Shown here piece after piece: positions 5,321 to 49,169 of a stretch of DNA of 64,000 bases (its first letter is position 1; each line of letters starts with the position of its first letter). The notes beneath the pieces are model-generated. The model worked only from the letters and a program-made list of their open reading frames with translations, made no database searches and was not told the origin of the DNA. The stretch spans positions 57,866,910-57,930,909 of the forward strand of contig CM047431.1 of assembly GCA_026168455.1 (NCBI GenBank). Reading direction: 5' to 3'. Position numbers and translations under genes: made by a program. This stretch comes from Theocolax elegans (lineage: Eukaryota > Arthropoda > Insecta > Hymenoptera > Cerocephalidae).

Positions 5321-5585
5321 CACGGAGAGAAAAGATTTAGGTAATTTTACGAAGCTTTCTGTAGATATTTACTAAAATTTTCATTAACGCGGTAACATAC
5401 TGCCAAAACCCAAAAAATTACTAAACTTTTTGTCAATTTGTTACTGATCTTTCTATCAATTTTTACTGAAAGTCTACATTTTTAATAAAAGTTCAATAAT
5501 TTTTATGCGTAGTATGTTACCGCGTTAAGTAACAATAAAAGTGAAATTTTAGAAAAATTTATACTGAAATATTTCTCTCTCCGTG
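5321..5585. mobile_element. MITE with CACGGAGA termini, copy 1
   Basis: The element starts CACGGAGAGAAA and ends TTTCTCTCTCCGTG. It is flanked on both sides by TA, consistent with a TA target duplication, and has an internal inverted pair around TTAACGCGGTAACATACT. It has no coding capacity. The same ends are found on the unrelated-bodied element at 17799-18013. Confidence 0.8.
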
Positions 5586-8345: not shown

Positions 8346-8612
8346 CACGGAGAGAAAAGATTTAGGTAATTTTACGAAGCTTTCTGTAGATATTTACTAA
8401 AATTTTCATTAACGCGGTAACATACTGCCAAAACCCAAAAAATTACTAAACTTTTTGTCAATTTGTTACTGATCTTTCTATCAATTTTTACTGAAAGTCT
8501 ACTAATTTTTAATAAAAGTTCAATAATTTTTATGCGTAGTATGTTACCGCGTTAAGTAACAATAAAAGTGAAATTTTAGAAAAATTTATACTGAAATATT
8601 TCTCTCTCCGTG
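8346..8612. mobile_element. MITE with CACGGAGA termini, copy in duplication unit 2
   Basis: This is the duplicate of 5321-5585, carried by the 3-kb tandem duplication. Ends and flanking TA are unchanged, with a small internal length difference near 8501-8506. Confidence 0.8.
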
Positions 8613-37446: not shown

Positions 37447-37609
37447 ACTACAATCAGAAAAAAGTTGTAGTTAAAATTACAATGTTGTCCAGTAATGCAG
37501 GGACAAACTGACACTAAATCCAAAAATTCACCACAGAGATTATAATAAAATTTGCTAGAAAGTTATTAATTTATTTACTCTCTAAATATAGTCCAGTTAA
37601 AATTTCACT
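37447..37609. repeat. Left terminal inverted repeat of the CACTA-like element
   Basis: Pairs with 49012-49169 in reverse complement over its whole length with scattered mismatches and small indels. Shared blocks include AAAATTACAATGTTGTC, GCAGGGACA, CTGACAC and TACTCTCTAAATATA. The outermost CACTG is degraded here to CAATC. Confidence 0.85.
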
Positions 37610-37740
37610 ATTTGAATCAGTTAATTTATTTTAACTGAAAAAACAGTGAAAAATTCACTGGATTTTTAGCGTTTAATTTATTGCTGACAATTCAGCTGAA
37701 AACTTACTGATTGAATCAGTGAAATATCGACTGAATGTCC
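37596..37740. repeat. Left subterminal repeat region
   Basis: Multiple short copies, in both orientations, of CAGTGAAA, TTTCACT, CACTGGAT and AACTGA follow the left inverted repeat. In plant CACTA elements such subterminal motifs bind the element-encoded DNA-binding protein; by analogy they could be binding sites for the zinc-finger transposase or the SAM protein. Confidence 0.65.
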
Positions 37741-38086
37741 ATAAAACGCATATCATGATTTTTCCCGGAAAAATCTTAACGGTCAAGTGCAGAAAATATC
37801 GACACTTACTCTCTGAATTGCTGCAGGATTATTTGAGCTTTTAATTAAAAAGGTGTGTATAATACTAATTAATTTATTTGATATAGACAAAAGAAAACCT
37901 TTTTTAATAAATATATGAGTTTAATACTTTCATTTTTATTCATCTTTTTTCAATATAATAAAGCAACAAATTTAGGTTAAGACTTAGTATTGTTTAAAAT
38001 TTGTTATTATTACATTTCTTACTTGTATAAAATAAAGTACTTAAAAGTTACATATTATTGTTTTAGCTGCATTATAATCTATTTTT

Positions 38087-39897
38087 ATGGATCAACTTAG
38101 TGAATCACTGACAGTCGAAGGACTCGTTAAGTTTTTGAGGGAGCACCACTTCGACGAAGGAACTCTTAAGGCTATCGAAGGTTAGTACTGGAGAGTATCA
38201 AGATTCATGTTAAAATTTAACATTAAGTTACAGTACTTCATCCGTAAACTAGAATTCACTTTCCATCTTTGTTATTATAGTACTTCATCCGTAAACTAGA
38301 ATTCACTTTCCATCTTTGTTATTTAAAGTCTAATTGAAATATAAATATTAAAAACTCTAATGACACATGACTTAAAAAATAATAATAAAATTATATTGTA
38401 GCATTATGCGTTGCATTTTTCCAAGTTGCATTGTAAATATTGAACTAGAAATTTTAAATGTTTTATATAAATTAATAATTCAGAGTTATGCTACATAAAT
38501 GTCATTAATTAAACACAGAGTTAGTTCATCAGTATAGAGAAAATCCCAACTGTGTCTAAACGTCACACATATTCACATGTCAACTTATCCCAAATTCACT
38601 CCAAGTCACAAATCCATTTTCAAAATTTACTAAACTAAATCACACATAAACGTCGCCAATTAAACATACAGTTTGTTCATCAATATAGAGAAAACCCCAA
38701 CTGCCTCTAAATGCCATAAATGCCACATATATTCTCATGTCCACTTATCCCAAATTCATTGATAAAGTCATAAGTACATTTTCAGAATTTGTTACTTTAA
38801 TCGTCATTGAAATTTCTAATATTAAAAACTTGTCGTCCAATATAATGTCATCTTGAAAAAAAATAAGAGATCATGAAACGCAAGCAAAGTCTTCAATAAT
38901 TTGTTTTATGTCAATTACCCAGAAGTCTACCAACGCATAATTTTTGTTTGCAGTAGAAATATTTAAATAGAGATACACATAAAGTAAAATAAATTGTATT
39001 ATTCTTTGCGCCTGAAGTGTTAATTATGGTTTTACAGATACTAAGTTTATTTTTAGAAAAGATAAAAATGCAAGTGAGCTTTTACCAATAAGGCTGACTT
39101 TTGACAAATACAAAATTTTATATTATAATGCCCTTGTTTATAATTCACTTTCATTTCTTTAATTATATAATCAACAAATTTTTGTTTGTAAAAAATTGCA
39201 TTAAATTTTTCAGGTTACGCATGTCAACTACATTAATTAAAAATAATGCTAAGTTATTATACAATATTTATTGTTGCACTTGCAGTATTAAGCATTACTG
39301 TTTCCAAGTTACATTATATATAATGGACTAAGACATTTTAATATTTTTATATATATATATTCACAATTCAGTGTTTCATTAAACTAAACATCACTTATAC
39401 TCTCACTGCACTTTAAAACCTTTTTTACTTGCACAAATACTTGTCTCAAATTTTTAAAAGTTGATGGAAAACAAGGTGAACAAACTGTTTTTTATTAATG
39501 CTAAGCTGCATTTAGTGTGTTGGAAAAAAAATAAAAATATTGACACAAGATAGTAATGCACAATGTACCAATAATTTTTATGTTACTTCCAAACACACTG
39601 CAGCTATAAGCATAAGCTGTCAAAGTAAACAAGTCCTAAAGATCTCACTGCAAACTGAAGACTGACTTGATTCACTTGATACAGTTGACACACACACAAA
39701 CACACGCATTACATAATTTCAAAAATAAATTAGATTTCAATTTTGTTGCACACACTCACTCGCGACTTTCAAATACTTCACGAGACAAGAACATTTACCG
39801 AGAGCTCGTATGAACGTCGACGACGAGTATAAACAAGCTGATGAACATTCGCGCAACTGTATCAGTTGTTCACACTACACCGACGAGAGCGAAAAAA

Positions 39898-39982
<85 letters not shown>

Positions 39983-40496
39983 TGCGGAATCTTGAATTTA
40001 GGCTATGTTCACGGTCGAATTGCTATATCGATAAATCGATTGACAAGCCGTCGGCCGGACATGCACGCTATGCGTACTTCCGACTCGTCACGATACGTTT
40101 TACTCACGAATCTCACGATACTTTGGCCGTTCACAGACGATGCAACGAAAATCTTTCGACATCGTATTTCTCACTTCTCTTAGATTATAAAAATCGAAAT
40201 GTGAATGTATGAGAATACACGATCGTTCCTAGACTCCGAGATACTCGATCTACTGGCGATTCTACTTTGGACGTCTCAGGCCACCAACCCTGGCATCCCG
40301 GTATTGAGAATATGTACGGTAATAAATAAAGTATTACCGTATGTATATACATATATTATAAATAATAATTATTCATTTGCAGTATATATGTAGTAGAAAT
40401 AAATAGATAATTGGAGGATTATATATTATTGAAAAAAAAATATATTTAAGAGGGTTTATAACCTAAAAATTTAATTTTTTTGTCAACACTTTGTTC

Positions 40497-40535
<39 letters not shown>

Positions 40536-43500
40536 CTCAGAATGTAATTTACGCGCAACCCGTCACAGTGTTTTCCAAGATACCCATGTAGTTTTTAGAC
40601 TTTACACAAAGCGCAAGGTATACTTGACACTAAACCACTTCCGTCAAATTCACATATCAAGGATATTGTACTTATTCTACATTATAAAACATTATCAAAT
40701 GGAAGAAGTATGTTCCAATATACTGTGAGGGACTGGAAACGATATTTTGAGTCTGAAATGATAAATCAATTTCATATTATTTTATTTTTATCTTTAAAAA
40801 TTTTGTAGTATCTAAATATTTCAAAACTGATTCATCGTCAAAACTCAAAACATCATTTATAATCCCTAGTAATCTAATGCAATATAATTCTGCAGTTTGA
40901 TAACATTTGATAAAACAGAAGGTGTACAATGTCAATATTTATAATATTTGAAAATTAATTTTAAAATAAAAGAAACAAAATTACTATAAAATAATTAATT
41001 ATTTTTTAATATTTATTGAGAAAAACGTAAATAAAAATGTAGTACCGGCACAGAGATTTAATTTATTTTAAAATTCAAGCCCATAAACGGGCAGCTACAA
41101 CCTAATAACCCGGGAAACTGATATTAGATTTATTTTAAAATTCAATCCTAAAATTCAATAATACAATTCTTCAAATAAGTCTGTTAAATTGAATTTATTT
41201 TCAAATTAAATTTAACAGACAGGCAGCTATAACCTAATAACCCGGGAAAGAGGGATTTAATTTATTATAAAATTCAATTTAACAGACAGGCAGCTATAAC
41301 CTAATAACCCGGGAAAGGGGTATTAAATTTATTTTAAAATTCAACCCCTGAGACAGGCAGCTATAACCTAATAACCCGGGAAAGGGGGATATAATTTATT
41401 TTAAAAATCAACCCCTGAGACAGGCAGCTATAACCAAATAACCCGGAAAAGAGGGATTTAATTTATTTTCAAATTCAATTTAACAGACAGGCAGCTACAA
41501 CCAAATAACCCGGGAAAGAGGGATTTAATTTATTTTCAAATTCAATTTAACAGACAGGCAGCTATAACCTAATAACCCGGGAAAGGGGGATTTAATTTAT
41601 TTTAAAATTCAATTTAACAGACAGGCAGCTATAACCTAATAACCCGGGAAAGGGGTATTAAATTTATTTTAAAATTCAACCCCTGAGACAGGCAGCTATA
41701 ACCTAATAACCCGGGAAAGGGGGATATAATTTATTTTAAAAACAACCCCTGAGACAGGCAGCTATAACCAAATAACCCGGAAAAGAGGGATTTAATTTAT
41801 TTTCAAATTCAATTTAACAGACAGGCAGCTATAACCTAATAACCCGGGAAAGGGAGATTTAATTTATTTTAAAATTCAACCCCTGAGACAGGCAGCTGTA
41901 ACCTAATAACCCGGGAAAGGGAGATTTAATTTATTTTAAAAACAACCCCTGAGACAGGCAGCTATAACCAAATAACCCGGAAAAGAGGGATTTAATTTAT
42001 TTTCAAATTCAATTTAACAGACAGGCAGCTATAACCTAATAACCCGGGAAAGGGAGATTTAATTTATTTTAAAATTCAACCCCTGAGACAGGCAGCTATA
42101 ACCTAATAACCCAGGAACGGTACATTTAAGAAACGAAACTATAATCTAGCCGATTGATTTCAGAATATTAAATTTCTCTTTCCGTGGTCATATTGTTATA
42201 AATAATAGATTGAATTATATAATATTAAACCTACCTTTCCTGGGTTACAACTGTCTGTCTGCTAGATTAAAAATCTTTTTCTTCCGGGATATTTGACCTT
42301 AGCTACCTTTGTGTTAAATCGGATGCAATAAAATTATTATTCCAGATAATTTGGGCTTACCTGCCTATCTGCTAAATTAGAATTAAAACACCAAATTGTT
42401 CTTTCCTGGGTTACTTAGAATTGTCAGTAAGCCGACGGTATGATAGAAGATGTTTTAATATTGACGGAATTAAAATATCAGGTTTTTAGAAATATTCAGC
42501 GAAAATGTGTGTGAATCTTGATGAATGTAGTAAAATTTTTAGTTCTCTTGAGTATCTGCGATGATTTTAGCACACATCACGTAATTATCGTTCACTTGAC
42601 AATTCATCACATCGTTCATTAATCATAAAATCTTAAAATTTTTTAACAAAGCTTTTAAGTAAAGAAATATAAAACCTTTACAGGCAGTCTATACAACAGT
42701 TAGAAAATGGAGCAGCTTAATTGTTACATATGTAACAATTTAATACCTGGAAATGTAGATGACCTAGGACGACATTTCCGTCATAACCATGGGCTTAGAA
42801 TGTCTTTCAAAAGAGGTGATACAGGATTTATTTGTTCTCAAAATGGTTGTGAATCTTCTTTTCAACATTTTAGAAATTTAAAGGTGCATCTGTTAAATCA
42901 TCACCGTAATGTTTATCTCGAGGAACAAAATATTGTTGATGACGAAAGATACAATGGTAGGGTAAATAATGAACATGTTGAAAACATGGAGTTGGATGAC
43001 GAAAATGATAACGATGTGGCAGCAAATGATAACGATGAGGCAGAAAATAATGCCGATAATGGATTTGATTTGAGAAATTTAATTATTAAAATGATATCTA
43101 GGTTACATTGCAATGGTTCGGTTACAGGTGATCTTGTTAAAAGTATTATCGAAGAATTCGAATGGATTTTATCTCTAACTAAAACCTCATTAGTAAAAAG
43201 AATTGGAGATCAATTAACAGCAGGTCGAGTTATTGATGAAAATTTAGTAACAGCTGTTAATAATATTTTAGATTTTGATTGTTCATTTAATAATTTAAAA
43301 ACTTATGATCAACAAATCAATGCAATGGTTGAAAACTGTGGGTACATTGAACCAATTGAAATTCCTCTCGGTCGGCGAATCGATTCCAGGCTTGATCCTT
43401 CTTCCTGCAGTTATGAACAAGCTACTGTTATTGAAACATTTCAATACGTTCCTATAATTAAAACTTTAAAGTTAATCATACTAAATGAGGAAGTTAGGCA

Positions 43501-46500
43501 AGCAATTTTATCAGAACAACCATCAGCCGATGGTATATTAGGATCTTTTCTTGATGGCGATTATTTTAAACTTCATCCCTTACTTAGTCAACATCGTAAT
43601 TCCATTCGAATCAAATTGTACTATGATGAATTAGAAATTGTGAATCCGTTAGGTTCAAAGACTAGCATCCATAAGTTAGGAGTATTTTATTTTGTCATTG
43701 AAAATTTACCACCTCATATGAATTCTGAATTGAGCAATATTCATGTTTTACTTCTAGTTGCTCATGAAGATATAAAAAAGTATGGATTTGAAAAAATTCT
43801 TGCTCCGTTTCTCAAAGATTTAAGAGAACTAGAAAGTGATGAAGGTGTCCAGGTTAAATTGAAAGACGAAACTTTTGTACTTCGTGCTACTTTGACAAGT
43901 TTTTGTGGTGACGGTTTAGCTGTTCACGAAGTTTTTAACCTTCTTGGCCCATCAGCAAACAGATTTTGCCGTTTATGCTTAATATCAAGAGAAGATTTAC
44001 ACAACGGAAGGTTAGGCGGACATGAACCAAGAACGGAAGAAAAGTTTAATGAACAAATTGAATTATTAAAACAAAATAACTTTTCTGATGTAATAAAAAC
44101 AGCGACAGGCTTAAAGGGTGAATGCTGTTTGAACAAATCTAGATATTTCCACACATCAAGAAACAAAATTTTTGATATCATGCACGATTCTTTGTGTGGA
44201 ATTTGTCCAATGATAGTTAAATTAGTTCTTCATTATTATGTTGTTGTTGCCAGACTTTTTGATATTTCATCTCTGAACAGTGCTATATCAAAATTTAATT
44301 ATGGTTATGTGGAAATAAAAAATAAACCTTCTGCGAATTTTACTGAAGCTATGCTTTCAAAAAGAGAACACTCTCTTAGTCAAAAAGCCATGCAAATGTG
44401 GCTACTAATTAGGGTTTTACCATTTATTCTTAGTGAAAAAATTTCCGAGGAAGACGAACACATGAATCTCATATTAATATACTTGAGAATTATGGAAATC
44501 ATATTTGCTCCTAAAGTAGCTTCCTCAACGCTGCCTTATCTAAATGCCTTAATCCACGATTTTGCATCATGCTTTCAACAATTATTTCCTGATACAAACA
44601 TGATAAATAAGTTTCATCATCTTTTTCATTATGTTGAATGTTTAAAATGGTCGGGTCCTCTGGTTCACTTCTACTGCATGAGATTTGAAGGTAAACATAA
44701 TGAGATAAGATTACGAGCTTATAACGTACATAATTTTAAAAATCCTTCAAAAACTCTAATACGCATTTGTCAAACTGTTCAAAGTTCTAAATGGGGTTCA
44801 GGTGATGTAAAAATAAATGATACTCGAGTCCTATCAGGTAAAATAAAAACTGTACATGAAATTGACAGTGCTCAGGATGTTATTAATCTAGGTAACGAGG
44901 AAAATGACTTTGTCTTCTGTGCAAATTCCGTTAGAATAAATGGAGTTGAGTTTCGCAAAAATTTGTTTGTTGTTTTAGAAAAATCTTATCAAATGGAAGG
45001 CAACCTATTAGTGTTTGGTCGAATAGATGAAATTGTTGTTCTTGAAATTGAAGTTTATTTTCGTATTTATATTTGTACAACGTTAGGTTTTGATACTAGC
45101 GTAAATGCTTATCATGTAGAGTTAGGAACCCCTGAAAAGATTCACCGATTTATTCAACCGTCAGCTCTTGCCTATTACAAACCTCTTTGCTACTGGAGCA
45201 AGTCCGGATCAGATAATCTATACATTAGTGTTCGTCATATTATACTATGACATTATTATGAAGGTAAGACATACATTTAGCAAAGTTGAAGTATGTACTT
45301 CAATACATAGATGTCCCACCCCGACTTTATAAAAGAATTGCTTTTAATTTTTTTAAGTTACACCATTACAGTTTGATTTTGTAAATATTTTTATTTTTTA
45401 CAAATATCTTGAAGAATATTTTTAAAATAAATTGGTTGAATACTGCATGTAATTGCAACAATTTAATAAATGTGGATACTTATGTAGGTTTATTTAATAT
45501 TATTTTATCTTTACTCTACCAAAAAATCCTATTACGCTTTACACTCAAAATAAGAATCGTTTTTTAACACCTTGCATCAGTATGCAAAAAATATATCTCT
45601 TGTTAATATTTATTATTTGTATTGTAGATGAATGTATCGATGGGTCATCATTCTTACAGTGTTCAACAGAAGATTTTCGATCAATTGGAATTAAATTAGG
45701 CCCTGCGAAAAAATTATTTAAAATTATAAATACTGCTAAAGTGAGTTCACGAATAATATATTTATAAATGATAAAATTATAAATGATTTTACATTATGTA
45801 GTAACTAAATATGTAAATATTAACCATTTTATTTCATGTACAAGATATAAAAAATATAAATTTAGATTAATGTATATAATTTTTGCCTAAATTTATATTT
45901 TTTGAGTACATTTTTAGTGTTTAAAATAAATTGACAATATTTGTTTTAAATACTTTTATTTTACTAAATAGAAAATATTTGTATAAACGCAGGTGCCCAC
46001 AGGAGATTTTATAGTTGATAATGGGATTCTGATAGCAAATCGCAGTGTGGAAGAAGAATCTTGTTCGGAAACATGTATAGAAAATAATTCTGAAAAAAAT
46101 ATGACAAATGATGATTCGTCTAAAGTTGAAAATATTCATTATAACCAGGAAAAAGAAATTAATTATTTAAAACAAAGAGATGACAAAGAAAATAAAAAGG
46201 AGACTACCAAGAATATAATTTCTACGTCACACATAGTTAAACCATTGACAGCTAAAAATGAAAATTATTTAAAAAGGAAAGCCGTTGCTTACAGTGGTAC
46301 GGTTTCGCTTTCTTCCAGTGCAGATCAAATGTGCCAGAAGGTGAATCAGTATGAATTTACGGTAAGATTTATTTATACAAAATATACTGCTTTTTTAATA
46401 AATTAAAATTTTTGAAGATTCCTTAAACTTTATTTCAGCGTTTTGACTCTATCGTTCATACACTGCTACAAGATCCTCAAGATGGACAAAAAATAATTGC

Positions 46501-48228
46501 AGCTGCACGTGACAATGTTTTTACAGAGCAAATTAGAAGACTCATGATTAAAATACTTGTTGCTGAACTCGTGACGATTCAAAACTCGTAGTTAGTATTT
46601 TAATTATAATGTTATTGAAATATGATAAGTATAACTTGATTTTAATTCTATGTTACAATTATGTGCAGTTATCCACCAAGTGAATCAAAGGTTGCTTTGG
46701 CTAAAGCAATTGTCACAGAATTTCCAAATTTAAAGGACAATGATGCCAAGCTCGGTTATGTATGTACTTTTTTCAAATTTTACTTCTTTTTGATTCACAT
46801 AATACGAATGTTTTCACTATATTTTATGCAGTGAAGTTATAACAAAATAAATCTAGTAAAATTTAATTTTTCAGGAACACTATTATGATCCTAGTCAACA
46901 CACAGGATTTATTGAATTTAGACTTTTAACTTTAAGGAAAAGTTTACCGAGTGAAGAGAAAAAGTATAAATCAAAAACAAAAAATAACCTGCAAAAGAAA
47001 CCTGAAGAAAAAACATGTCTTGATGATAAATCGCTGCTTTCTAAAGATATTTTTGAAGAAACAGTAAGCTACAGTATTAATAATATTATTCTTTCAATGC
47101 TAATTTAATGTATTTTTTAAAAAAATATACAACTTTATATGTTTACAGATTAACCGCCTGAAATTTCGCAATCCTTCTAATTCAAATAAGGATGTTATCA
47201 CATCAGAGATGCGAGAAACGTTGCCGAACAGAAGAAATTGGATTATGGAAGAAAATCCTCCAGTTGCTATGATTTTTGAAATGTACCCTCGGTATGAAGA
47301 TTATAATGGCGATTTGGTAATTAAAAAAAGTTTATTGTTATATTTATGACATTTTGAACAATATTTTTTATTACTATTTAATTCTAGATTGATGCAGAAT
47401 TCGAATGGCTGCATCCAGGTAAAGGTGATAGATTTATAAGCAAATTTGTTACGATCTACAAAGAAAAAATATTTGCTTACTCTGTTGATATGGTTGATAT
47501 TTCCCATCAAGTTACAAATGTTACTGACGGTAAAAAATTACAAAAAATAATGAATTTTGTTAAGCTGTTTTATACTTTACTTTACATGTATAATTTACTT
47601 TTTAGACGATCTTAAAGCTTTATTAATTTTAATATACCTCTTGCCAACATCTAATGCGTTGAAGAAGGGAAAATCTAAAGGAAAAGCTTCGCAAGAATTG
47701 CAGAAAAATGTTTTAGTAAAACCTGTGAATGTGAAAGATTTATTAATAGAAATGGTGTCAGTAAGTATTTATTTTTTTTTCTAAGTTAAATTTCATAAGT
47801 AATGTTAAAACATTTGTTAATATTTTTAGGACGGCACCGACATTGAAAATTACATTAAAGAGAAATGTAAAACTTCGAAGTCTCCTATTCAACCTTATAT
47901 CATTGGTATTTCAAGCGGATCAACAAATCGATATTATGTCATAGCAGACCAAAAATGTTTACATAGGAAAGATAAAACGAAAATTGTCGGAGCATTCGAT
48001 TTACTCTTTAAGACATATTATGTGTTTAATTTACAATTTCCATTAAATTTATTGAATTTTTATACATTTATAGACTTTTACATTTATAAAGTAAGCAATA
48101 CAAGCCCTAGCAACGTTGTTAGGTCCTTGCACGTCAATTTATTAAATTTTGATGTAAGTAAGATAGATTTAAAAAAAAACAAACACTTTACAGAAAGATC
48201 TACAGATGATTCAAGTGATGAATCTTAA
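38087..48228 (+). CDS. SAM-domain accessory protein of the transposon (ten exons, 623 aa)
   Basis: Exons: 38087-38180, 45628-45740, 45993-46361, 46439-46590, 46669-46759, 46875-47063, 47149-47316, 47388-47529, 47606-47760 and 47830-48228. All introns are GT-AG, all phases join, and the sum is 624 codons including the stop. Residues about 10-69 (exons 1-2) form a SAM domain: LVKFLREHHFDEGTLKAIE, then CIDGSSFL, then DFRSIGIKLGPAKKLFKI. Next comes a charged Lys/Glu/Ser-rich linker (exon 3). A conserved-looking C-terminal part follows, with NRRNWIMEENPPVAMIFEMY near residue 370, an alpha/beta region, and an acidic tail DDSSDES. The layout resembles SAMD3-like proteins of animals as I remember them. 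Its biochemical role is unknown; SAM domains usually mediate self-association, so a role in assembling the transposition complex is inference. Exon 4 has two donors 3 nt apart (46587 or 46590), both in frame. A polyadenylation signal AATAAA lies at 48265-48270. Confidence 0.8.
38233..38328. repeat. Tandem 48-bp direct repeat in the first intron of the SAM gene
   Basis: Two adjacent copies of a 47-48-bp sequence beginning TACTTCATCCGTAAACTAGA and ending TTTGTTATT. They are identical apart from their last bases, so the duplication is recent. Confidence 0.85.
38496..38795. repeat. Two diverged ~145-bp direct repeats in the first intron of the SAM gene
   Basis: The first copy includes TAAACACAGAGTTAGTTCAT, GAGAAAATCCCAACTG and CTTATCCCAAATTCA. 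The second, from about 38646, has the corresponding TAAACATACAGTTTGTTCAT, GAGAAAACCCCAACTG and CTTATCCCAAATTCA. They differ by substitutions and small indels and show no coding potential. Confidence 0.75.
39690..40330. other. CpG-richer block with long (GA)n inside the transposon
   Basis: Embedded in strongly AT-rich transposon DNA is a patch with many CpG (CGTCGACGACGAG, GCCGTCGGCCGGACATG) and a (GA)n array of about 80 bp at 39900-39980. It lies upstream of the transposase frame, inside the SAM intron. It could be a promoter for the transposase transcript, a nested insertion, or captured host DNA. Open frames through it are mostly Arg-Glu repeats and are not counted. Confidence 0.45.
41085..42120. 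repeat. 67-bp satellite array within the transposon, about 15 units
   Basis: The core AACCTAATAACCCGGGAAAG recurs every 66-67 bp. The CAGCT of each unit lies at 41092, then 41224 (one degenerate unit between), 41291, 41358, 41425, 41492, 41559, 41626, 41693, 41759, 41826, 41893, 41959, 42026 and 42093. Two linker variants alternate: CAATTTAACAGACA (X) and CAACCCCTGAGACA (Y). Their order makes higher-order blocks, about 335 bp for the block at 41291 repeated at 41626, and 200 bp for X-Y-Y at 41826 repeated partly at 42026. Most units hold CCCGGG. The array lies about 0.6 kb upstream of the transposase start. Confidence 0.95.
42220..42425. repeat. Diverged inverted copies of the satellite unit
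   Basis: Segments such as CCTTTCCTGGGTTACAACTG, CTGTCTGCTAGATT, CTGCCTATCTGCTAAATT and CTTTCCTGGGTTACTTAG match the reverse complement of the 67-bp unit (CTTTCCCGGGTTATTAGG and GCTGCCTGTCTGTTAAATT). They are heavily diverged, giving an older inverted arm beside the young direct array. Confidence 0.6.
42707..45250 (+). CDS. EnSpm/CACTA-like DDE transposase with two zinc fingers (847 aa)
   Basis: A single uninterrupted frame. The start has a good context (GAAAATGG), and a plausible acceptor (CTTTACAG at 42676-42683) lies just upstream, implying a 5' untranslated exon. Residues 6-28 and 43-65 are two C2H2-type fingers (C6-x2-C9...H23...H28; C43-x4-C48...H61...H65). Residues 75-120 are acidic and Asn/Asp-rich. 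The catalytic core resembles the transposase-21/tnp2 type: LYYDELEIVNPLG (Asp307), FCGDGLAVHEVF (Asp402), a C-x2-C knuckle (421-424), FDIMHDSLCGI (His493) and MRFEGKHNEIR (Glu661). I propose Asp307, Asp402 and Glu661 as the acidic triad; that is inference from motif order. It lies inside the first intron of the SAM gene, same strand. AATAAA signals occur at 45426-45431 and 45465-45470. No stop or frameshift is present. Confidence 0.85.
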   Translation: MEQLNCYICNNLIPGNVDDLGRHFRHNHGLRMSFKRGDTGFICSQNGCESSFQHFRNLKVHLLNHHRNVYLEEQNIVDDERYNGRVNNEHVENMELDDENDNDVAANDNDEAENNADNGFDLRNLIIKMISRLHCNGSVTGDLVKSIIEEFEWILSLTKTSLVKRIGDQLTAGRVIDENLVTAVNNILDFDCSFNNLKTYDQQINAMVENCGYIEPIEIPLGRRIDSRLDPSSCSYEQATVIETFQYVPIIKTLKLIILNEEVRQAILSEQPSADGILGSFLDGDYFKLHPLLSQHRNSIRIKLYYDELEIVNPLGSKTSIHKLGVFYFVIENLPPHMNSELSNIHVLLLVAHEDIKKYGFEKILAPFLKDLRELESDEGVQVKLKDETFVLRATLTSFCGDGLAVHEVFNLLGPSANRFCRLCLISREDLHNGRLGGHEPRTEEKFNEQIELLKQNNFSDVIKTATGLKGECCLNKSRYFHTSRNKIFDIMHDSLCGICPMIVKLVLHYYVVVARLFDISSLNSAISKFNYGYVEIKNKPSANFTEAMLSKREHSLSQKAMQMWLLIRVLPFILSEKISEEDEHMNLILIYLRIMEIIFAPKVASSTLPYLNALIHDFASCFQQLFPDTNMINKFHHLFHYVECLKWSGPLVHFYCMRFEGKHNEIRLRAYNVHNFKNPSKTLIRICQTVQSSKWGSGDVKINDTRVLSGKIKTVHEIDSAQDVINLGNEENDFVFCANSVRINGVEFRKNLFVVLEKSYQMEGNLLVFGRIDEIVVLEIEVYFRIYICTTLGFDTSVNAYHVELGTPEKIHRFIQPSALAYYKPLCYWSKSGSDNLYISVRHIIL

Positions 48229-48339
48229 ATTTATTTTTAATATAATTTTTAGTTTGATAAAAATAATAAATATTATTAATAAAAATTATAAAAATTTGAA
48301 AAGTATTTATACTGTTTTTTTAACTATTTCAGTCACGAG

Positions 48340-48490
48340 TTTCTCCAGAATTACCATTTTTCCAAAATTACCATTTTTCAAAATTCAGATCGGCCATATT
48401 GGATCCGCTATTTTGAATTTTAAAATTCTCTCAACGGATTCGTAACCAGCGACCTCAAAAATCCCTAAATGCAAATTTCCAGATAATAAT
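48340..48490. repeat. Possible dispersed repeat remnant in the right half of the transposon
   Basis: The text CAGATCGGCCATATTGGATC, CGCTATTTTGAATTTTAAAA and GATTCGTAACCAGCGACCTC resembles a repeat I remember from several insect genomes. The small internal duplication CCATTTTTCCAAAATTA/CCATTTTTCAAAATTC precedes it. It follows the polyadenylation signals of the SAM gene. The repeat identity is from memory and unverified. Confidence 0.3.
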
Positions 48491-48760
48491 AGCTATTATT
48501 TCGTCTTCACATGAATTAATTCTTAAAATTCTGGTTTTCTTTACACTAATTTGTTATTAACAATATTAACTTTTAATAGTTATGCAATATCATGATACTT
48601 TTAACATTTGTTGGGTTCTAGGGAAGACGGTGTCAAAAAACATCAGAGAAATAACAGACGCCTGCTGATCTATAATAAATCGATAGTGTCTAGGTGGGAC
48701 ATTGGTATCCCGCTGTGACTGAATGGGTTAATGTCTCCCTATCAAAATTACTTATTTTTT

Positions 48761-49031
48761 AGTGAAATTTTCACTGAAGGTTTGTGAAAGTTTCACTGGA
48801 TATCCAGTGAAATTTCTATTAATTTCAACTAGTAGATATTTTACTTTCAGTGAAATTTGCACTGAAGATCTGTGAAAATTTCACTGGATATCCAGTGAAA
48901 TTTCTATCAATTTCAAACAGTAGATATTTCACTTTTTCATTCAGTGAAATAACACTGATTACTAGTGCAGCAATTTTGACTAACCCATTCAGTGAAGATT
49001 TCACTGCATTTCAGTGAAGTTTCACTGGATT
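48761..49031. repeat. Right subterminal repeat region
   Basis: Contains more than ten copies of CAGTGAAA or TTTCACTG in both orientations, many paired as short palindromes such as TTTCACTGGATATCCAGTGA. A block of about 75 bp is itself repeated (48790-48860 and 48865-48935). This mirrors the left subterminal region and leads directly into the right inverted repeat. Confidence 0.85.
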
Positions 49032-49169
49032 ATATTTAGAGAGTACGACAATTAGTCAGTAAAATTTATTATGATATATGTGGTAAATTTTTTGATCGTG
49101 TCAGTCTGTCCCTGCAATGACAGACAGACAACATTGTAATTTTTACTATAACTTTTTTCTCAGTGTAGT
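49012..49169. repeat. Right terminal inverted repeat of the CACTA-like element
   Basis: Reverse complement of 37447-37609 with mismatches. Ends ...CTTTTTTCTCAGTG at 49165, giving an intact CACTG terminus, followed by TAGT, which also mirrors the left flank. Confidence 0.85.

Follow-up and report, generated by a model that had tools for sequence, protein, structure and literature searches.

A CACTA/EnSpm-type transposon of Theocolax elegans with a RAG1-like transposase gene nested in a gene for a SAM-domain protein

A stretch of 64,000 nucleotides from the hymenopteran Theocolax elegans (assembly GCA_026168455.1, contig CM047431.1, positions 57,866,910 to 57,930,909 of the forward strand; hereafter the window) holds a transposon-like element in which a transposase gene is accompanied by a gene for a protein with a sterile alpha motif (SAM) domain, raising the question of whether the second gene is a working part of the element or a passenger. 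The original prediction for this locus, an apparently complete element of CACTA/EnSpm type whose two genes are both intact and one of which encodes a SAM domain, was borne out, and the transposase open reading frame (ORF) was found in addition to be nested in the first intron of the SAM gene, an arrangement that is new relative to that prediction, which had described both genes. We consider it somewhat probable that this is an autonomous-looking CACTA/EnSpm (CMC) DNA transposon with a two-protein system like that of En/Spm, in which the SAM protein is the counterpart of TnpA or the ORF2 protein.

The element spans positions 37451-49165 and its flanking arms are inverted repeats of approximately 180-190 bp each. 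Without gaps, the arms pair over 43 nt at 91% complementarity (37447-37489 with 49127-49169), for which the chance expectation is 2.7e-9 per 12-kb region, assuming independent bases; with gaps, the alignment takes in about 189 nt of the left arm and 178 nt of the right, and scores 138 versus 34 for the best of 300 base-composition shuffles. Both the long inverted repeats and the CACTG-type right terminus that had been predicted were recovered. Read inward, the right end begins CACTGAGAAAAAAG and the left CAATCAGAAAAAAG, with two mismatches in 14 positions; CA..TG is present at both ends, whilst CAC is found at the right end only, the left being CAA. Termini in the CMC clade are mostly 5'-CA..TG-3', with CAC..GTG in EnSpm. 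A TA dinucleotide precedes each inward-read end, in a palindromic ACTA/TAGT context in this single copy, and since TA lies outside both ends the apparent target was AC-TA-GT, with TA duplicated; target-site duplications of the CMC clade measure 2-5 bp, that of canonical EnSpm being 3 bp. In the remainder of the window, BLAST picked up nothing else that resembles the element or one of its two proteins. With one copy in the window, the suggestion of recent or current activity was not confirmed. The boundary features are as follows.

37449..37450, no strand: TA on the left side, one copy of the apparent 2-bp duplication of the target site (sequence)
37451..37639, forward strand: left terminal inverted repeat, starting CAATCAGAAAAAAG (aligned, with gaps, to the reverse-complemented right end)
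48988..49165, reverse strand: right terminal inverted repeat, starting CACTGAGAAAAAAG when read inward (inverted-repeat alignment)
49166..49167, no strand: TA on the right side, the other copy of the apparent 2-bp duplication (sequence)

Subterminal repeats, a further mark of CACTA/EnSpm elements and part of the original prediction, are also present. With at most one mismatch allowed, the window holds 29 matches to the motif CAGTGAAAWTT where 5.4 would be expected, and none of 100 shuffles reached 29. Of these matches, 19 lie near the element ends (5 at 37594-37727 and 14 at 48760-49067), the others being divided between the rest of the element (3) and the DNA beyond it (7). Exact copies of CAGTGAAA number two in the left 400 bp, nine in the right 465 bp, none in the remaining element and three in the other 52,285 bp.

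37594..37727, no strand: CAGTGAAAWTT-type subterminal repeats of the left end, 5 matches (motif count)
48760..49067, no strand: CAGTGAAAWTT-type subterminal repeats of the right end, 14 matches, of which two lie around CACTGGATATCCAGTG palindromes (motif count)

Outside the element, pairs of motif matches at 5458-5549 and 8483-8576 have internal spacings of 81 and 83 and lie approximately 3026 bases apart, which suggests a repeated segment.

The predicted 847-codon transposase frame proved to be uninterrupted. Its candidate catalytic residues are D307, D402 and E661; C421/C424 and H637/H641 are those of the C/H motif, defined according to passages of PMC12730594. Across 64 aligned sequences C421, C424, H641 and D307 are invariant, whilst H637, D402 and E661 are conserved in at least 90%. 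An AlphaFold2 model (pLDDT 89.4) found its best structural matches for the DDE core, of RNase H type, in RAG1 and Transib, at sequence identities of only about 14% (RAG1) and 9% (HzTransib), and the predicted structure fits RAG1 better than Transib. Two C2H2 zinc fingers precede the core; six of their positions are invariant among 13 aligned sequences, and C6 and C9 are conserved in at least 90%. The probable BAH-like domain that follows is possibly a chromatin reader, and no report of a BAH domain on a CACTA transposase was apparent by title in a literature search. The Pfam family Transposase_21 matched the transposase at 22.7 bits, under the cut-off of 28.6, and among ten homologues it matched P0070 above the cut-off (31.4) and P0006 below it (15.3), with no match in the other eight. 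Viral and genome contigs scanned for transposase relatives yielded no confirmed locus.

42707..45250, forward strand: transposase ORF, 847 aa (uninterrupted open frame)
42722..42904, forward strand: two C2H2 zinc fingers, C6 C9 H23 H28 and C43 C48 H61 H66 (alignment, zinc-finger chain matches)
43061..44824, forward strand: RAG1/Transib-like catalytic core, residues 119-706 (predicted structure matches)
44816..45229, forward strand: probable BAH-like C-terminal domain, residues 704-841

Ten exons make up the predicted model of the SAM gene (1872 coding bases including the stop codon, 623 residues), in which, as anticipated, all exon phases join and all introns are GT/AG. Exon 1 lies 4.5 kb upstream of the transposase and exons 2-10 lie downstream at 45628-48228 on the same strand, hence the transposase ORF sits inside intron 1 and the SAM domain is split, the intron cutting it after residue 31, at about profile position 26. 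The exons of the second gene therefore flank the transposase ORF on both sides, as expected of an En/Spm-like layout. Pfam SAM_1 matched residues 28-66 of the protein at 23.9 bits against a cut-off of 23, and structural matches to the N terminus of homologue P0001 are SAM folds, Polycomb-group SAM domains being among the nearest.

38087..38180, forward strand: exon 1, start codon and first SAM-domain part (gene model)
38181..45627, forward strand: intron 1, holding the transposase ORF (gene model)
45628..45740, forward strand: exon 2, second SAM-domain part (gene model, Pfam)
45993..46361, forward strand: exon 3, polar linker (gene model)
46439..46590, forward strand: exon 4, where the conserved core begins (gene model)
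46669..46759, forward strand: SAM gene exon 5 (gene model)
46875..47063, forward strand: SAM gene exon 6 (gene model)
47149..47316, forward strand: SAM gene exon 7 (gene model)
47388..47529, forward strand: SAM gene exon 8 (gene model)
47606..47760, forward strand: SAM gene exon 9 (gene model)
47830..48228, forward strand: exon 10 and stop codon (gene model)

The two genes would presumably share a transcription unit resolved by alternative splicing. Poly-A-like signals follow each gene, at 45426 and 45465 after the transposase and at 48265 and 48278 after the SAM gene. Splice sites were scored with a model trained on the nine introns of the SAM gene, and the only candidate leader sites were 37853/38067, the acceptor of which scores 7.1, under all nine training acceptors (9.2-11.8).

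37853..38066, forward strand: putative intron of the 5' untranslated region (best-scoring donor and acceptor within 37451-38090)

The scoring does not support the joining of a leader exon to the acceptor at 42684, which lies 23 nt ahead of the transposase start codon, and this was kept only as a possibility; the acceptor scores 3.7 and ranks 32nd of 260, that at 42346 scoring 9.8. A splice from exon 1 into the transposase ORF was set aside: in-frame acceptors lie at 42759, 42768, 42816 and 42825, and the first two score low (4.0 and -6.4). The hint for such a splice was Monomorium P0008, which starts with a SAM-like stretch according to a first-half SAM profile that had P0008 in its own training set, whilst Pfam sees no SAM domain in this protein.

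Intron 1 contains repeats of its own. A 47-bp tandem duplication (38228-38321, 98%) and repeats 151-160 bases apart (38493-38758) are possibly nested insertions, and many of the fifteen copies of a longer array share a AACCCGGGAA core.

41052..42149, no strand: 67-bp tandem repeat array of 15 copies, upstream of the transposase (repeat search)

Relatives of both proteins were sought in other organisms. The transposase search returned 265 relatives among 6987 candidates, of which the best 120 are listed; those with names come from what we take to be ants, wasps, a mealybug, a lacewing, thrips, sea cucumbers and one fish, the wasp genera listed being Microplitis, Cotesia, Eretmocerus, Copidosoma and Trichogramma, and most of the other listed matches are unnamed contigs. 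With the SAM protein, a single-sequence search retrieved two Leptopilina proteins (P0001 and P0002), and a three-sequence profile added Planococcus citri P0003 and the fish proteins P0004 and P0005, each search scoring only the 7999 candidates with most shared words. Viral contigs scanned for relatives of the SAM protein gave no confirmed locus. In Planococcus citri, transposase P0028 (LOC135834551) and SAM-core protein P0003 (LOC135834552) have consecutive locus numbers, and their records share a longest contig of 84333219 bases. P0003 begins within the second SAM part, which would be expected if its first exon lay beyond the transposase. Planococcus citri P0028 and P0029 are 52-54% identical to the window transposase over the searched region, as are several wasp proteins, and this mealybug-wasp likeness may hint at horizontal transfer.

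Among the best 120 of the 265 transposases, the second half of the SAM domain follows the transposase in five, a figure that is not a frequency, there being no neighbour information for the other listed proteins. These run-on proteins derive from Holothuria (P0057 and P0120), Chrysoperla (P0039), Trichogramma (P0092) and an unnamed 3.1-kb contig (P0064), and are taken as showing order and strand on the DNA, not fused proteins. Three exceed the Pfam cut-off (SAM_1 at 24.1 bits in P0057 and 25.2 in P0064; SAM_2 at 23.1 in P0092), whilst P0120 (19.2) and P0039 (16.0) fall below it. Similarity to the window transposase stops at residue 722 in P0057, 682 in P0064, 665 in P0092, 542 in P0120 and 485 in P0039, in every case no more than about 15 residues from the SAM match or overlapping it, and the first SAM half is thus absent between them. 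P0057 and P0064, which are 50% identical, depart from the transposase at the same point. P0057, P0120 and P0039 also match the SAM-gene profile past the SAM part, and P0092 does so weakly (E 8.5e-4, over a stretch that includes the SAM part). As P0057, P0064 and P0120 had been used to train the second-half profile, the independent evidence for these three is their Pfam results.

The co-occurrence of the two proteins, which the original prediction had proposed as a check, was seen at the level of coding linkage, in proteins from Planococcus, Holothuria, Chrysoperla and Trichogramma. Owing to this linkage, a conserved second gene that encloses the transposase is a better reading of the SAM gene than a passenger, as which the prediction had also considered it, and the evidence suggests that the SAM protein has long functioned within the element and is not chance cargo. 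In such a system the RAG1-like transposase would bind the terminal repeats, excise the element and join it at TA, and the second gene, with its SAM domain split around the transposase ORF, would make an accessory protein in the role of TnpA or ORF2. The conserved core of this protein would most likely bind the CAGTGAAA-type subterminal repeats, and multimerisation through the SAM domain would most likely link molecules, such that the ends are paired for cutting and transcription of the element is controlled. On this reading the element would be mobile.

Several observations weigh against this two-protein reading. Only five homologues of the SAM gene were retrieved, versus 265 for the transposase, and the searches, each scoring 7999 candidates, returned no SAM protein from Monomorium, Microplitis, Cotesia or Eretmocerus, annotated species with close transposases. 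This scarcity may reflect the ten small exons and the limited number of candidates scored, or else many related elements may lack the SAM gene. Conversely, two Leptopilina SAM proteins were found and no Leptopilina transposase is among the 120 listed of 265. The run-on proteins are mostly predicted sequences, and although their Pfam SAM matches start at profile positions 25-29, the matches in the intact window and Leptopilina proteins start at 22, so that the late start alone is no proof of a break. Splice-site scoring singled out no acceptor just before the transposase (42684 ranking as above). Lastly, DNA binding by the SAM core is a supposition: the core showed no clear solved relative and no recognisable DNA-binding fold, in a homologue model that was weak (pLDDT 57.9) and barely tested the non-SAM parts.

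Three other explanations were considered. The SAM protein may be the element's own conserved gene product but serve as a regulator or anti-silencing factor, controlling the terminal-repeat promoter or limiting transposition, instead of pairing the ends; we regard this as rather unlikely. Linkage in other animals is compatible with any useful role, the Polycomb-group SAM domains among the nearest folds would suit a regulator, and background passages of PMC1636069 ascribe to TNPA both the reactivation of a methylated promoter and the repression of an unmethylated one. The clustering of repeats near the two ends (14 at the right, 5 at the left), however, also fits end pairing, and the two roles are not exclusive. 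It is improbable that the SAM gene is a captured host gene that travels along and contributes nothing to transposition. Host genes commonly encode SAM domains, and the fewness of the SAM homologues and the full-length Leptopilina proteins without a listed transposase would agree with capture, but the 1.9-kb coding sequence is intact and in the linked animals only the second SAM part comes after the transposase. Insertion of a transposase-only transposon into the first intron of a host SAM gene, with outer repeats that are coincidental or those of another element, would account for a transposase within that intron on the same strand; it is very improbable, and largely refuted by the inverted repeats, which lie outside exons 1 and 10, and hence outside all SAM exons, and not around the transposase alone. 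The order of transposase and then second SAM part in other animals likewise argues against it.

An extension of the two-protein reading, offered tentatively as a possibility, is that a widespread animal CACTA/EnSpm lineage, from insects to sea cucumbers, keeps this nested pair, with a RAG1-like transposase bearing a BAH tail inside a SAM gene and a SAM protein that polymerises on CAGTGAAA repeats to pair the ends, and that the vertebrate and wasp SAM homologues were domesticated from it. The Leptopilina proteins, equal in length (547 aa), full-length and 78% identical, are candidates for such a domesticated transposon gene and may be host genes by now. The fish SAM-core protein of Misgurnus (P0005) represents 15 member sequences, and Pfam calls no SAM domain in its N-terminal region. 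The fish proteins presumably resemble SAMD3, for which no literature on transposition appeared relevant by title.

The identity of the second protein in animal CACTA elements is not clear from the literature searched, whereas plant TnpA/ORF2 helps excision; were the SAM protein its animal counterpart, the element would offer a concrete, testable two-component system built on a RAG1-like transposase, with a bearing on a possible transposon descent of SAM-core genes in wasps and fish. A literature search, with most subscription journals outside its scope, brought up no report of a CACTA element that encodes a SAM protein or of an En/Spm-like nested second gene of the SAM kind, and nothing was found for Leptopilina together with EnSpm or for sterile alpha motif with transposon-encoded.

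Amongst known systems, maize En/Spm and the plant CACTA elements with ORF2 also hold a transposase and a second protein within CACTA-type ends. ORFs 1 and 2 of En/Spm lie in the first tnpA intron, and TnpA binds the subterminal repeats. The present element differs from these in the SAM domain and conserved core of its second protein and in the apparent target duplication, which is 2 bp (TA) as opposed to 3 bp. According to passages of PMC1636069, alternative splicing of En/Spm yields tnpA-tnpD, the tnpD transcript spanning ORFs 1 and 2, and in portions of PMC4158355 the ORF2 protein is described as aiding excision and transposition in specific plant CACTA families. From RAG1 and Transib the window transposase is set apart by its C2H2 fingers at the N terminus and its probable BAH-like domain at the C terminus. 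Animal CACTA relatives with Transposase_21 include SmTRC1 of Schistosoma mansoni and further TRC elements of animals; in the consulted portions of PMC1636069, SmTRC1 has 2-bp target duplications in 7 of 14 copies, a tandem-repeat region (per the figure legends) and spliced products besides the transposase that its authors likened to TnpA, but is about 4.5-4.7 kb in size with CCC ends. Those portions name no SAM domain for SmTRC1, and the terms 'zinc finger' and 'subterminal' are absent from PMC1636069. A further parallel is provided by the EnSpm-like ESTA elements, which, as described in passages of PMC12730594, have a CMC-type transposase, a TA duplication such as is apparent at the present element, and an extra gene, and differ in being fungal and in that their extra gene encodes a TET/JBP dioxygenase.
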